Assembly: GCF_012848855.1 (NCBI RefSeq)
Contig: NZ_CP051630.1
Coordinates: 3,017,501-3,081,500 of the forward strand
Reading direction: 5' to 3'
DNA: 64,000 nt
Origin: Pyruvatibacter mobilis
GTDB lineage: Bacteria; Pseudomonadota; Alphaproteobacteria; CGMCC-115125
Part shown: one piece after another, positions 8,275-11,952 of the stretch
Layout: every line of letters begins with the position of its first letter
Numbering within the stretch: the stretch's first letter is position 1
Notes under the pieces: model-generated
The model's input: the letters and a program-made list of their open reading frames with translations, nothing else
What the model was told of the DNA's origin: nothing
Databases searched by the model: none
Translations under genes and position numbers: made by a program

Positions 8275-9279
8275 TCAGGCCTCGCGTTTGAAGGGCCGGG
8301 CGAGCAGGCCGCCAATGGCGTCGTCCACGCTGGCCTCGCCGGTGACGATGGCGGCGACCGCTTCGCAGATGGGCATTTCCACGTTGTGGCGGCGGGCCAG
8401 GGCCACCACGGCGGGGGCGGTGGCCACGCCCTCGGCAACGGTCACGCGCTCGGCGATGATCTCGGCCAGGTCGCGGCCTTCGCCCAGGGCTGCGCCCAGC
8501 GACATGTTGCGGCTTTGCCGGGAGCCGCAGGTGAGGATGAGGTCGCCGAGGCCGGAGAGCCCGCCGAGGGTCTCCGCCCGGGCACCGAGGGCGACGCCGA
8601 GGCGGGTGAGTTCGGCAAAGCCGCGGGCGGTCAGCGCGGCGGCGGCGGACGCGCCCAGCTTGCGTCCCTCGACAATGCCGCAGGCAATCGCCAGTACGTT
8701 CTTCACCGAGCCGCCAAGCTCCGCGCCGATAAGGTCGCTGGCGAGATAGGGCCGGAAGGCGGGGATGCCGATCGCCTCCACCAGCGCTTCGCCAAGCGCG
8801 TCATCGGCGCAGGCGAGGGTTACGGCAGTGGGCAGGCCGTTGGCCACGTCGGCGGCGAAGGACGGCCCGGACAGGACGGCGGGCACGGCCTCCGGCAGGG
8901 TCTCGGCCACCACCTCGGTCATCAGCTTGCCGGTGGCCTGCTCGATGCCCTTGGCGCAGATCGCAACCGGGGTGCCGGGTTTCACGTGGCGCGCCATGGA
9001 GCCGGTGACGCTGCGCAGGGCCTGGGCGGGGCAGACCAGCAGCAGGGCGTCATTGGCGGACACCGCGCTGAGATCCGTGGTCGCGCGGATCGACGTATCG
9101 AGCGGAATGCCGGGCAGATAAAGCTCGTTCAGGTGCTGCCGGTTGATGCTGTCGGCCACTTCCGGCTCATAGGCCCAGAGGGTGACTTTGCGTCCGGCGC
9201 GGGCGGCCACGGCAGCCAGGGCCGTGCCCCAGGCGCCGGCCCCGATGATGCCGATATGGGAGAGAGGCTTTTGGGCCAC
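8275..9279 (-). CDS. gpsA: NAD(P)H-dependent glycerol-3-phosphate dehydrogenase
   Basis: 334 aa from the GTG at 9279 ([19 protein letters not shown]). It reduces dihydroxyacetone phosphate to sn-glycerol-3-phosphate for phospholipid synthesis, in the cytoplasm. The nucleotide-binding GAGAWGT is at the N terminus. [18 protein letters not shown] and [18 protein letters not shown] are signature stretches, the latter with the catalytic lysine. A longer GTG start at 9330 is possible; I prefer 9279 because homologues begin a few residues before the Rossmann motif and AGGA lies upstream. Divergent from the TetR gene at 9355. Confidence 0.95.
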
Positions 9280-9354
9280 TTTGTGATCAGTCCTGCGGTG
9301 TTGTGATTGAATGGTTCGTTGATTATTCACCCGCGGACCTTACACTCCCGCCCC

Positions 9355-9990
9355 ATGACAGAAAAAGACGATACCAGGGACTGCATACTGGAAGCGGCAC
9401 GGACGCGATTTCTCCATTACGGCTATGGCAAGACCACCATGGCGGAGATCGCGAAGGATTGCGACATGTCGCCCGGCAATCTCTATCGCTTCTTCGAAGG
9501 CAAGCTGGACCTGGCGGAGGCCATTGCCCGCAAGGCGGCGACCGAGACCATGGAAGAGCTGGCCCGCGCCGTCCGCGCGCCGGGCAAGACGGCCACCCAG
9601 GCCATGCGGGACTACCTGTTCGGCAAGCTGCGCATGACCTACACCAATCTCGAAAAAGACCCCAAGATCATCGAGCTGGCGCAGACCGTGTCGGCGGAGC
9701 GGCCGGATTTCTCCAACGACATGCTGGAGCAGGAGCGGGCGATCCTGATGGAGATCATCGCCAATGGGCGCGAGCTGGGCGAGTTCGCCACCAGCGACGT
9801 GGCCTTCACGGCGGAGATGATCCAGTCGGCCACCATGAAGTTCAGCTATCCGCAGCTGTGGTCGCGGCTGACGCTTGAAAATCTCGAGCGCGAACTGGCC
9901 GGCGTCTTTGACCTGGTGCTGGGCGGCCTGTGCCCGGACCGCAAGCTGTTTGCCGGCGGCGGCATGGCGCCAGATCGCCAGACCGCCTGA
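9355..9990 (+). CDS. TetR family transcriptional regulator
   Basis: 211 aa. The N-terminal helix-turn-helix is clear: DCILEAARTRFLHYGYGKTTMAEIAKDCDMSPGNLYRFFEGKLDL (residues 9-53). The C-terminal ligand domain is divergent. It is transcribed away from gpsA and toward two tiny membrane-protein genes. A near-perfect 30-bp palindrome lies 215 bases past its stop and is the best candidate operator. The regulator, operator, leader and tiny genes look like one module inserted between gpsA and tsaD. Ligand unknown. Confidence 0.9.
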   Translation: MTEKDDTRDCILEAARTRFLHYGYGKTTMAEIAKDCDMSPGNLYRFFEGKLDLAEAIARKAATETMEELARAVRAPGKTATQAMRDYLFGKLRMTYTNLEKDPKIIELAQTVSAERPDFSNDMLEQERAILMEIIANGRELGEFATSDVAFTAEMIQSATMKFSYPQLWSRLTLENLERELAGVFDLVLGGLCPDRKLFAGGGMAPDRQTA

Positions 9991-10204
9991 CCGGCCTCTT
10001 TACCCGTCCCGGACAGGGCATCTGCCTTAAAAAGAGTCACCTGCGTTTCATGGCGCAGGGTTGGGCATGGAAGGCTGCGGAAAAGCGCCTGAAAGCCCCG
10101 CTTTTTCGCATGTGAGCCATGCCGGTTCAAAAGCGGGCCTCCTGACAAATCCCGATTTTCTCAATCAGAACAAGCCATTAGCTCCTCTCTTGGACTCCGT
10201 CTAA

Positions 10205-10234
10205 ACAATGAACAATTTGCAAAATATTCATTGT
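10205..10234. promoter_or_regulatory. 30-bp palindromic operator (probable TetR site)
   Basis: Outer arms ACAATGAA/TTCATTGT are perfect and the inner TTTG/CAAA also pairs. Thirteen of fifteen half-site positions are complementary. The length and symmetry suit a TetR dimer-pair site, and the nearest regulator is the TetR gene at 9355-9990. Binding is inferred, not shown. Confidence 0.65.
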
Positions 10235-10243
10235 GACAGCCGG

Positions 10244-10331
10244 ACCCGTGCCCCATATCCCAGAAGCCGGACGGGGTCCGGTGGTGTCCAGGTCGGCCGG
10301 GATCAGCGGGATCCGGGGTCGGGGCACGGGT
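10244..10331 (+). promoter_or_regulatory. Structured 5' leader candidate
   Basis: An 11-bp perfect stem (10244-10254 with 10321-10331) encloses an inner hairpin CCGGAC-GGG-GTCCGG (10267-10281) and a weaker GGATC/GATCC hairpin near 10300-10315. The closing stem ends 10 bases before the GGAGGG ribosome-binding site (10341-10346) of the first tiny gene. It could be a cis-acting RNA structure; no known riboswitch class was recognised. Confidence 0.4.
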
Positions 10332-10353
10332 AAAGCTGCTGGAGGGCTATCCC

Positions 10354-10473
10354 ATGACTTACGCATCCCTGAGGCTTGCAAGCCCCGTCAGCCGGTATCT
10401 GCCGGCCCTCGCCGTCGCGGTCTATGCGGTGGCGCTGATTGCGGAAGTGATGACCCGTGGCGGTGCCGTCTGA
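10354..10473 (+). CDS. Tiny single-helix membrane protein (39 aa)
   Basis: A 39-codon gene starting MTYASLRLASPVSRY and ending MTRGGAV. It has one hydrophobic helix (YLPALAVAVYAVALIAEV, about residues 15-32) with arginines on both flanks. A GGAGGG site lies seven bases before the ATG, good support for so short an ORF. It is followed 72 bases later by a second tiny membrane ORF and then a strong terminator. No family recognised. It is not a light-harvesting polypeptide, as the helix has no histidine. Downstream of a structured leader and a palindromic operator. Confidence 0.6.
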   Translation: MTYASLRLASPVSRYLPALAVAVYAVALIAEVMTRGGAV

Positions 10474-10545
10474 CCGGCACCCCGAGGCCCGCGGGACATC
10501 CCGCCGGCAGCTGCTTTTTCGCGTGCGTGTGGATGGAGACGACCG

Positions 10546-10689
10546 ATGAGCAACGCAAGCAAGACTTCGACTGACCTGCCTGAGCTTCTGCCGGTTCCGC
10601 TGACCACCAAGATCGTGGTGTTCGCCGGGACGGTGATCATGGCCGGGTACACGGCGGCCCTGGTGTTCCAGGCAGCCGACATTTTCTGA
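10546..10689 (+). CDS. Tiny single-helix membrane protein (47 aa)
   Basis: 47 aa, MSNASKTSTDLPELLPVPL followed by one hydrophobic helix (KIVVFAGTVIMAGYTAALVF, about residues 22-41) and AADIF. GGAGA precedes the ATG by eight bases (ATGGAGACGACCG). The layout resembles the first tiny gene: short polar N terminus, one helix, almost no tail. The two may form a small membrane complex. No homologue recognised. Ends 125 bases before a strong intrinsic terminator. Confidence 0.6.
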   Translation: MSNASKTSTDLPELLPVPLTTKIVVFAGTVIMAGYTAALVFQAADIF

Positions 10690-10813
10690 TCGCATTCGGG
10701 TCCGGCGGCCCTGGTCCCCCTCCTCTCAGGGCCCGCCGCCGGGTCCGCACCCTCTTCCTCCCTTGGCCGATATGGGTCCTCATCCCCGGACCCCAGGCGA
10801 AGGGTTTCCGACT

Positions 10814-10848
10814 GGGGCCGTGCTTTCGGGTACGGCCCCATTTTTTTT
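10814..10848 (+). terminator. Intrinsic terminator after tiny membrane genes
   Basis: Perfect 8-bp stem GGGGCCGT/ACGGCCCC (10814-10821 and 10832-10839), 10-nt loop, then an A and eight T (10841-10848). A textbook rightward terminator placed between the tiny genes and the convergent tsaD. Confidence 0.9.
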
Positions 10849-10860
10849 GATCAGAAGAAC

Positions 10861-11952
10861 TCAGTCAGCGGTGAGATCCGCCAGCGGCCAGCGCGGGCGG
10901 GGGCTGGCGTCCAGCGTGTCGGTGGAGCCTATCGCCACCCGCTCGACACCGGCCCAGGCAATCATCGCCGCATTGTCGGTGCACAGCGCCATGGGCGGGG
11001 CGGTGAGGTCAAAGCCTTCCGCCTGCGCCAAAGTTTCAAGCCGCTCGCGCAGGGCTGCATTGGCCGCAACGCCGCCTGCCACAACGAAGGGGATGGGGTC
11101 TCCGGTTCCGGCTCGCTCCCGCATCATCCGCATGGCGTTGCGGGTGCGGTCCTCGATGGCGTCGGCCACCGCAAGCTGGAAAGAGGCTGCGGCGTCGGCG
11201 AGGTCTGTTTCCGTCAGCGGCACCAGCTTGGTCACGGTCTGGCGCAGGGCCGTCTTGAGCCCGGCAAAGGAAAAATCCGCACCCGGACGGCCCTTCATCG
11301 GGCGCGGCAGGTCAAAGCGCTTCGCATCGCCCTTGCGCGCCCATTTCTCCACATGCGGCCCGCCGGGATAACCCAGGCCCAAGAGTTTCGCCGTCTTGTC
11401 AAAGGCTTCGCCCACAGCGTCATCCAGCGTGGTGCCGAGCAGGGTGTAGTCCCCCACGCCGCGTGCCTCCAGCAGCTGGCAATGGCCGCCTGAGACCAGC
11501 AGCACCAGATAGGGAAATTGCGTGCCGCTGACGAGGCGGGCGGTCAGCGCGTGGGCTTCCAGATGGTTCACGGCCACGAAGGGTTTTTGCGCTGCAAAGG
11601 CCAGGGCCTTGCCGGTCACAAGCCCCACCATCAGCCCGCCGACCAGGCCGGGACCGGCGGTGGCGGCAATCGCGTCCACGTCGTTAAGGCCGAGGCCCGC
11701 TTCACGCAGGGCGGAGGCGATGAGCGAATCCAGATGGTCGATATGGGCGCGGGCGGCGATCTCCGGTACCACGCCGCCATAGGGTGCGTGCTCGTCGAAC
11801 TGGGACAGCACAAGGTTCGCGCGGATGGTGCCCGGCCGGCCCGGCACGCCCGACACAACAGCGGCGGCGGTCTCGTCGCAGCTGGTTTCAAGGCCCAGAA
11901 CGGTAATTTCGTGGCTCGATTGGTTGGTCATCTGGCGGTTTGTGCTATCCAT
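10861..11952 (-). CDS. tsaD: tRNA threonylcarbamoyladenosine synthase subunit TsaD
   Basis: 363 aa. TsaD transfers threonylcarbamoyl to A37 of ANN-decoding tRNAs, with TsaB/TsaE. Motifs: [15 protein letters not shown] at the N terminus, the metal-binding [16 protein letters not shown], and [13 protein letters not shown] near the C terminus. I start at the ATG at 11952 (MDSTNRQM) because GGAAG lies seven bases upstream; the ATG at 11931 ([15 protein letters not shown]) is the alternative. Reading the frame further upstream to 13689 crosses hemC/hemD on the other strand and is not coding. Divergent from hemC, 87 bases apart. Confidence 0.96.

Follow-up and report, generated by a model that had tools for sequence, protein, structure and literature searches.

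There are precedents for combining a small protein with a regulatory RNA. In SgrS/SgrT, one transcript gives both a small protein and a base-pairing RNA. Among the very small membrane proteins, TisB and DinQ are peptides of the type I toxin-antitoxin type. YohP and DinQ, each with a single helix, are described as reducing the membrane potential (PMC12719787; PMC3567139), whereas AcrZ, KdpF and MgtS exert their effect on complexes for transport (PMC11539335). In alphaproteobacteria, a short DUF1127 protein frequently goes together with CcsR-like sRNAs, as in the CIN1 locus (PMC10253847, citing Reinkensmeier and Giegerich 2015), and the sRNAs CcsR1-4 are processed from the ccaF1 3'UTR (PMC8625941).

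The locus analysed here lies in a window of Pyruvatibacter mobilis DNA (by window we mean the whole stretch analysed, 64,000 nucleotides) and shares features with all these systems. Like the CIN1/cuckoo loci (CcsR1-4 with CcaF1; ar14), it comprises small-protein genes followed by an RNA in the same inferred transcript and an intrinsic terminator, in an alphaproteobacterium (PMC10253847). Hairpins with CCUCC-type loops are also common to both, one being present in the window and such hairpins being found in 33 of 78 loci. In contrast to CIN1, there is no DUF1127 protein and its place is taken by one-helix membrane proteins, a TetR operator stands where ccaF1 has an RpoHI/RpoHII promoter, and the Rfam gathering scores are not reached. 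Since tests showed that two of the defining features are lacking, we file the locus not as a CIN1 member, but as a CIN1-like operon of small proteins and RNA that has its own repressor and a protein family not described before. As in SgrS/SgrT, a small protein and an RNA would come from one transcript, although the dual function is only inferred here and the RNA part differs, consisting of 3'UTR hairpins with anti-SD-like loops. The proteins resemble YohP, AcrZ, MgrB, MgtS and DinQ in being very small, with one helix and a predicted place in the inner membrane (PMC12719787, PMC11539335 and PMC3567139), but they match no known family, and each set of one to three tandem paralogues has a TetR of its own.

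The module is flanked by gpsA upstream and tsaD downstream, both on the opposite strand. An earlier, sequence-only reading of the region had proposed the order operator, leader, 39-aa ORF, 47-aa ORF and terminator just downstream of a TetR gene, and every element was found in its proposed place. The TetR-family repressor (211 aa, 9355-9990, forward strand) exceeds the Pfam cut-offs for both of its domains, with 48.8 bits for TetR_N (cut-off 24) and 51.7 bits for TetR_C_27 (cut-off 26.1), which bears out its earlier assignment. The AF2 model of the protein (pLDDT 89.2) is helical throughout and, in comparison with QacR, has the TetR fold over its full length. QacR is also its best PDB match (Z 19.1, rmsd 2.4, 183 aligned), and regulators of the FadR and EthR types follow closely (SaFadR, Z 17.2). 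As the model is nearest to QacR and then to FadR- and EthR-type regulators, it suggests a hydrophobic ligand; the ligand itself has not been shown. With the QacR/FadR-type sensors of the TetR/AcrR group the protein shares the fold and a palindromic operator across the promoter, the latter being known from sequence only, without binding data. What differs is the regulated function: tiny membrane proteins stand here in place of a pump or genes for fatty acids.

Operator O1, which belongs to the promoter of the small ORFs, is an inverted repeat at 10205-10234 (two 15-nt arms, 87% complementarity, no gap) with a 22-bp core at 10209-10230. It varies at only a few positions among the four genomes of the genus and is kept in other families too. 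The inferred promoter (10231-10259, forward strand) consists of a -35 element TTGTGA (10231-10236), which sits at the edge of O1, a 17-nt spacer and a -10 element CATATC (10254-10259). A strict sigma-70 consensus scan of 9200-11500 gave no promoter-like site, and the proposed promoter rests on a pattern seen across species. Of 72 loci, 71 have TTG at this edge (both T residues were part of the search pattern, the G was not), and a strict -10 test (4 of 6 positions, with A2 and T6) was passed by 16 of the 72 against a mean of 1.2 at control offsets. TATA stands exactly 23 nt from the edge TTG (+23) in 32 of 72 loci; this count was made only after the result of the strict test was known. The operator covers the -35 element and the arrangement therefore fits repression rather than activation by TetR, which is inferred from the nucleotide sequence and not from an experiment. 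Where the mRNA is inferred to begin, a short hairpin, CCGGACGGGGTCCGG, is predicted (10267-10281, forward strand), which is nearly the same in all genomes of the genus alignment. We also note that the promoter spacer (10237-10254) and the leader before the SD (10321-10338) are complementary at 83%, a feature that is kept only in part in the other three species.

A second operator, TGAATGGTTCGTTGATTATTCA, lies in the gpsA-TetR interval (9308-9329; genome positions 3026808-3026829) and matches the operator pattern with one mismatch. Its letters are the same in all four genomes of the genus, and similar sites precede TetR in many relatives. The TTGATT inside it (9319-9324) is likely to be the -35 element of the TetR gene. 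The inferred -10 element, TACACT (9341-9346), is very near the ATG, which raises the possibility of a leaderless TetR mRNA; this region (9341-9355) is kept in the genus.

The two small ORFs are on the forward strand. smORF-A encodes 39 aa (10354-10473; SD GGAGGG 7 nt before the ATG) and smORF-B 47 aa (10546-10689; SD GGAG 7 nt before the ATG), each with a single hydrophobic stretch predicted to form one transmembrane helix, so the good ribosome-binding sites and single helices of the sequence-only reading are confirmed. Its remark that neither peptide was recognisable also stands, as searches of Pfam, NCBIfam and PHROGs gave no consistent match. Had neither ORF been conserved in related genomes, that reading would have been refuted; both are conserved, and among the genus genomes the dN/dS is 0.12 for smORF-A and 0.28 for smORF-B, whereas the two wrong frames of these ORFs gave pN/pS values of 1.2-3.5 and contained stops. 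The idea of a tiny-membrane-protein module with TetR thus holds, and an operator over the -35 element, purifying selection and a small ORF behind the operator, also where TetR lies at another place, can be added to it. It was incomplete in that it missed the 3'UTR RNA conserved in many relatives; the membership of A and B in one family, two more operators and a third regulated small ORF were also absent from it. By sequence comparison the locus is probably a TetR-linked, inducible module of tiny membrane proteins, for which there are no expression data.

The order of the source genome is represented by four genomes, all of one genus, and TetR and the same arrangement of module elements are present in all four. 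When the whole source genome was searched with the operator pattern at 0-1 mismatch, three sites were found: O1, the site before TetR, and C1:2072325-2072346; four more places appeared at 2 mismatches. The third operator precedes smORF-C, a 63-aa one-helix ORF (L019:1784-1975) with a dN/dS of 0.22, and both operator and ORF are found in 4/4 genomes of the genus. With a small-protein profile whose rows include A, B and C, only these three were detected in the source genome at E<=1.

Sequence comparison places smORF-A and smORF-B in one new protein family. An HMM was built from 113 other members (at least one of them, L123_2, is a doubtful ORF) and scored against 300 shuffles of each protein. 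No shuffle scored as high as gA1, gA2, gB1 or gB2, and one did so for gB3; smORF-C is not clearly above its shuffles, 5 and 49 of 300 reaching its scores. The family has a median length of 38 aa (n=119). K+R residues average 1.91 per protein on the N-terminal side of the helix and 0.28 on the other side, hence the N-terminus is probably inside. The sequences diverge strongly between lineages. The core of the non-Hyphomonadaceae type is about [LA]..Y[GATS]..[LF]..Q.A; a Tyr occurs in or near the helix in 72 of the 119 proteins and the fuller motif in 63. In alignment A4 the Tyr is invariant by choice, since its 32 sequences were picked for the Y-type core. A profile of A4 matched 18 of 385 genomes at E<=1e-3 and 17 of these carry TetR; the 18th match (G258) falls within a frame of 412 aa and was taken to be fortuitous. 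Most of the matched genomes had also supplied rows of A4, and the only independent elements in this result are the lack of matches in TetR-less genomes and the G045 locus described below. Pfam, NCBIfam and PHROGs searches with 32 of the 119 members gave isolated weak matches only, with no family in more than two members, and identity with a known protein family was rejected for want of a consistent match. Purifying selection was detected on A, B and C, on the Parvibaculum-type A and on the Henriciella ORF. The Parvibaculum-type smORF-B, i.e. the second small ORF of nine loci (L067-L085), is a separate case: its pS is very low (0.144) and its pN/pS is 0.99, with no purifying excess, as if the DNA itself were constrained. 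Alignment A5 took 33 of the 80 named loci.

The layout is not confined to the genus. TetR was matched at E<=1e-30 in 40 of the 385 genomes of the class. In 29 of the 40, one of them doubtful (L061), an operator and small ORF(s) follow TetR, in 4 there is an operator without a small ORF, and in 7 there is no operator at that place. Operator and candidate small ORF were found together in 57 of 80 named loci (operator score >=23 of 32), including Parvibaculum, Rhodobiaceae, Henriciella and Hyphomonas records as well as MAGs; two Zavarzinia loci among the 80 have no operator and small ORF there. The two samples overlap, some named contigs being from the same genomes as the TetR set, and related loci in these counts are not independent. 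Eight of the 385 genomes contain the operator pattern in exact form, and each of the eight has TetR; the reversed-pattern control gave 0/385. An SD-led one-TM ORF lies within 420 nt after the operator in 43 of 54 named loci, the 54 being those of the 80 that have an operator and 420 nt after it. The controls are close to zero: 1 for the antisense strand, 0.2 expected from shuffles, and 0/281 other windows.

The family can also be found away from TetR. In G007 TetR is followed by a lolA-like gene, and an operator with one mismatch and a 42-aa one-helix ORF adjoin tsaD. In G045 some 28 kb separate TetR from three tandem family members, which are preceded by operator-like sites (2-3 mismatches). 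G171 belongs to the same family as G045, but the two stretches viewed there (L159, L205) showed no small ORF of this kind. A wider operator search was made in the 40 genomes. Among the matches listed, most had a single mismatch, and several genomes equalled the reversed control; nine places from this search (L150, L151, L153-L157, L161, L162) were dropped for having no family-like small ORF.

The neighbouring genes vary. Those between the small ORFs and tsaD, or replacing the small ORFs, are esterase-, DUF4399-, SDR-, DUF1329-, RND- and lolA-like, the names being taken from the sequence alone without a family search. In some lineages an SDR-like, DUF1329-like or RND-type gene follows the operator instead of small ORFs (L060, L062, L011, L065), and these replacement genes might hint at the nature of the ligand. 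Another lineage has a lolA-like gene (so named from its sequence) directly after TetR, with no operator or small ORFs there (L068, L088, L089, L092, L093, L096, L102, L105). Because the linked genes differ by lineage, no function was drawn from neighbours.

The unit is closed by an intrinsic terminator (10813-10848, forward strand) that is kept in the genus. Its stem at 10813-10840 has 12 pairs, 8 of them GC, and the T tail runs to 10848, which agrees with the strong terminator claimed before. Between smORF-B and the terminator the transcript is predicted to be structured: the fold of 10690-10848 has a z of -3.63 against 200 shuffles. It includes a hairpin at 10697-10747 (forward strand), found both by folding and by the hairpin scan, with the C/U-rich loop CCCUCCUCUCA (10718-10728). 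The hairpin is followed by an anti-SD-like stretch, CACCCUCUUCCUCCCUU (10748-10764, forward strand), which is almost invariant in the genus alignments and mostly unpaired, its last bases being paired in this fold.

A CCUCC-type loop is what we take to be the mark of cuckoo RNAs, an assumption that rests in part on the Rfam name of CcsR1. The 33 of 78 3'UTRs in which the scan detected CCUCC/CUCCC-loop hairpins carry 49 such hairpins in total, whereas shuffles lead one to expect 10.1 loci with 10.9 hairpins, the antisense strand gave 2, and random windows 27/714. An MFE-based count of such loops gave 32/70 3'UTRs versus 6/210. The last small ORF was chosen by script in the scan and can be wrong (e.g. 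L086). The scanned hairpin is absent from 45 of the 78 3'UTRs, i.e. from most loci of the Hyphomonadaceae/Caulobacterales type, from G002 and from the three smORF-C loci tested; in G002, which belongs to the source genus, the MFE fold does show a CCUCC/CUCCC-type loop though the scan did not.

The structure is best supported in the nine Parvibaculum-type sequences. Helix 1 has 9 pairs, of which 4 show changes on both sides and none is broken, and in the whole structure 98.7% of the cells pair, as against at most 54.9% when the structure is slid along the alignment. A covariance model of these nine sequences (R1) was run on 33 sources (258 kb) and gave 16 matches at E<1, each at a small-ORF 3'UTR. 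The best E-value, 1e-35, is at a training locus; other records follow with 6e-10, 5e-8 and 1e-7, and the weakest matches are that of the window (0.49) and one at 0.77. One of the 16 is a training locus and three repeat the locus of another row; the repeated sources are L002 (the window), L027 (a training locus), L101 (L033) and L081 (L029). No match at E<1 was found in 17 of the 33 sources, including the three other loci of the genus. The match in the window (10723-10869, forward strand) has 12.5 bits and is the better of two listed there. On this comparative evidence a 3'UTR RNA is well supported in several relatives, while in the window the support is weak and the RNA is only plausible.

The Rfam models gave weaker signals. 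The window scored 13.6 bits with CcsR1, for which the gathering score is 65.3. Scans of relatives covered 15 loci, and with ar14 (gathering score 58.8) the 3'UTRs of four relatives of one family scored 46.0, 45.9, 34.5 and 31.3 bits, the first two loci being near-identical to each other; weaker matches were seen in two Parvibaculum-type 3'UTRs (32.4 and 30.0 bits). Whole-genome searches with ar14 were made in 20 of the 40 TetR genomes, and the gathering score was reached in none of the 20. The small-ORF 3'UTR was the best whole-genome match in G021, G250, G152 and G323, and the 3'UTRs of G001 and G003 were matched at E 0.045 and 0.20; three of 14 control genomes had a weak match. The 34.5-bit 3'UTR of the locus scan (L046) is not among the matches listed in the whole-genome search. 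A match of 40.3 bits in G231 (L215) is inside a gene, looks like coding sequence and was rejected as probable chance; as such a match reaches 40.3 bits, 46 bits is only modest support for ar14. Both ar14 matches of the source genome lie outside the window locus, and the better one (L218), beside another ORF, was set aside. Matches of 3'UTRs to anti-hemB, sbrA, SorY and suhB were below gathering and were read as terminator-like chance. No DUF1127 match (PF06568, E<=0.001) was found in 12 of the 14 TetR genomes searched, the source genome being one of the 12. In other TetR-bearing genomes there are stand-alone RNAs with CCUCCUCCC loops (L216, L217 and L220, around position 1501), which appear to be cuckoo RNAs standing free, in addition to those in 3'UTRs.

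The small ORFs could, in principle, be chance frames in the long region after the TetR gene, and the lack of database family matches would be in line with this. For the set as a whole, however, the idea is contradicted by conservation in the genus, by dN/dS and by the 43 of 54 loci with a one-TM ORF; it was rejected on the dN/dS values and on this count against the near-zero controls, and we find it barely conceivable. The same coding evidence bears on the view that the RNA is the main product, in which case a cuckoo-type sRNA would be made from the transcript and the small ORFs would be mainly translated spacers or stability elements. The compensatory changes in the 3'UTR and the pN/pS of 0.99 in the Parvibaculum-type smORF-B could be cited for it, but the ORFs under purifying selection (A, B, C, Parvibaculum-type A and that of Henriciella) speak against it, as do most loci of the Hyphomonadaceae/Caulobacterales type and the three tested smORF-C loci, which keep an ORF without the hairpin. 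We therefore regard this view as quite unlikely.

If the proteins are what matters, the question is how they act. They might be membrane-acting stress peptides, similar to YohP, DinQ or TisB, which lower the membrane potential and slow metabolism without a specific partner. Their size, single helix and strong divergence between lineages fit such a role. Nevertheless, the dN/dS of smORF-A, the Tyr in or near so many helices, the 1-3 paralogues per operon and the retention in genomes of 1.7-1.9 Mb suggest more than bulk hydrophobicity, and we consider the stress-peptide role unlikely without dismissing it. They might instead assist a known transporter or enzyme complex as its accessory subunits, TetR being the ordinary substrate-sensing repressor of that complex and the 3'UTR only a stabilising terminator region. 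AcrZ, KdpF and MgtS provide a precedent (PMC11539335), and an RND-type gene follows TetR in L065 and a DUF1329-like gene in L011 (both names from sequence). Yet the three good operator sites of the genus precede TetR/gpsA and small ORFs and no transporter, one of the four 2-mismatch places having been viewed, and such a subunit role seems unlikely, though it too is not dismissed.

The reading we prefer is a TetR-repressed dual-output operon that yields membrane microproteins and a regulatory 3'UTR RNA and is released by a ligand. We place about even confidence in this reading as a whole; repression, ligand class, partner, RNA processing and RNA targets are all inferred. A TetR dimer bound to the palindrome over the -35 element would block transcription from the small-ORF promoter, and a dimer would also occupy the second palindrome before its own gene. 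TetR would be freed from the operator by a ligand of hydrophobic or amphipathic character, which probably signals that the membrane or its lipids are disturbed. The derepressed transcript would then give one to three very small inner-membrane proteins with the N-terminus inside and a single helix that often carries Tyr and Gln/Glu/Asn as polar residues; these proteins may pack against a membrane partner or one another. In many lineages the 3' end would form a hairpin RNA whose CCUCC/CUCCC loops could pair with Shine-Dalgarno regions, so that other mRNAs would be translated less.

The conserved layout, the coding selection, the overlap of operator and promoter, the three operator sites of the genus and, in several relatives, the structured 3'UTR are established by genome comparison. 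Comparison thus gives good support to the protein module and to its control by TetR, in the absence of expression, binding or ligand data. Among the open-licence papers listed by the searches, none was recognised as describing a TetR/small-membrane-protein/3'UTR RNA system. Tentatively, and with somewhat more doubt than belief, we see in it an old alphaproteobacterial envelope-stress device with a dedicated TetR, a new one-helix microprotein family of 1-3 paralogues and a co-transcribed cuckoo-type 3'UTR RNA. If this is true, the system would be a counterpart of CIN1 in which membrane proteins replace DUF1127 and a single transcript affects the membrane as well as the translation of other mRNAs. 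Small membrane proteins are often met singly, and little then points to what controls them or to a partner. In the present case a whole family has a dedicated repressor, operator and promoter and, in many relatives, an RNA linked to it, in several alphaproteobacterial families including ones with small genomes, therefore its regulon, ligand and partner are directly testable. In other words, this looks like an unrecognised membrane-stress switch in alphaproteobacteria, one that joins two poorly understood classes, the membrane microproteins and the CU-rich-loop RNAs.
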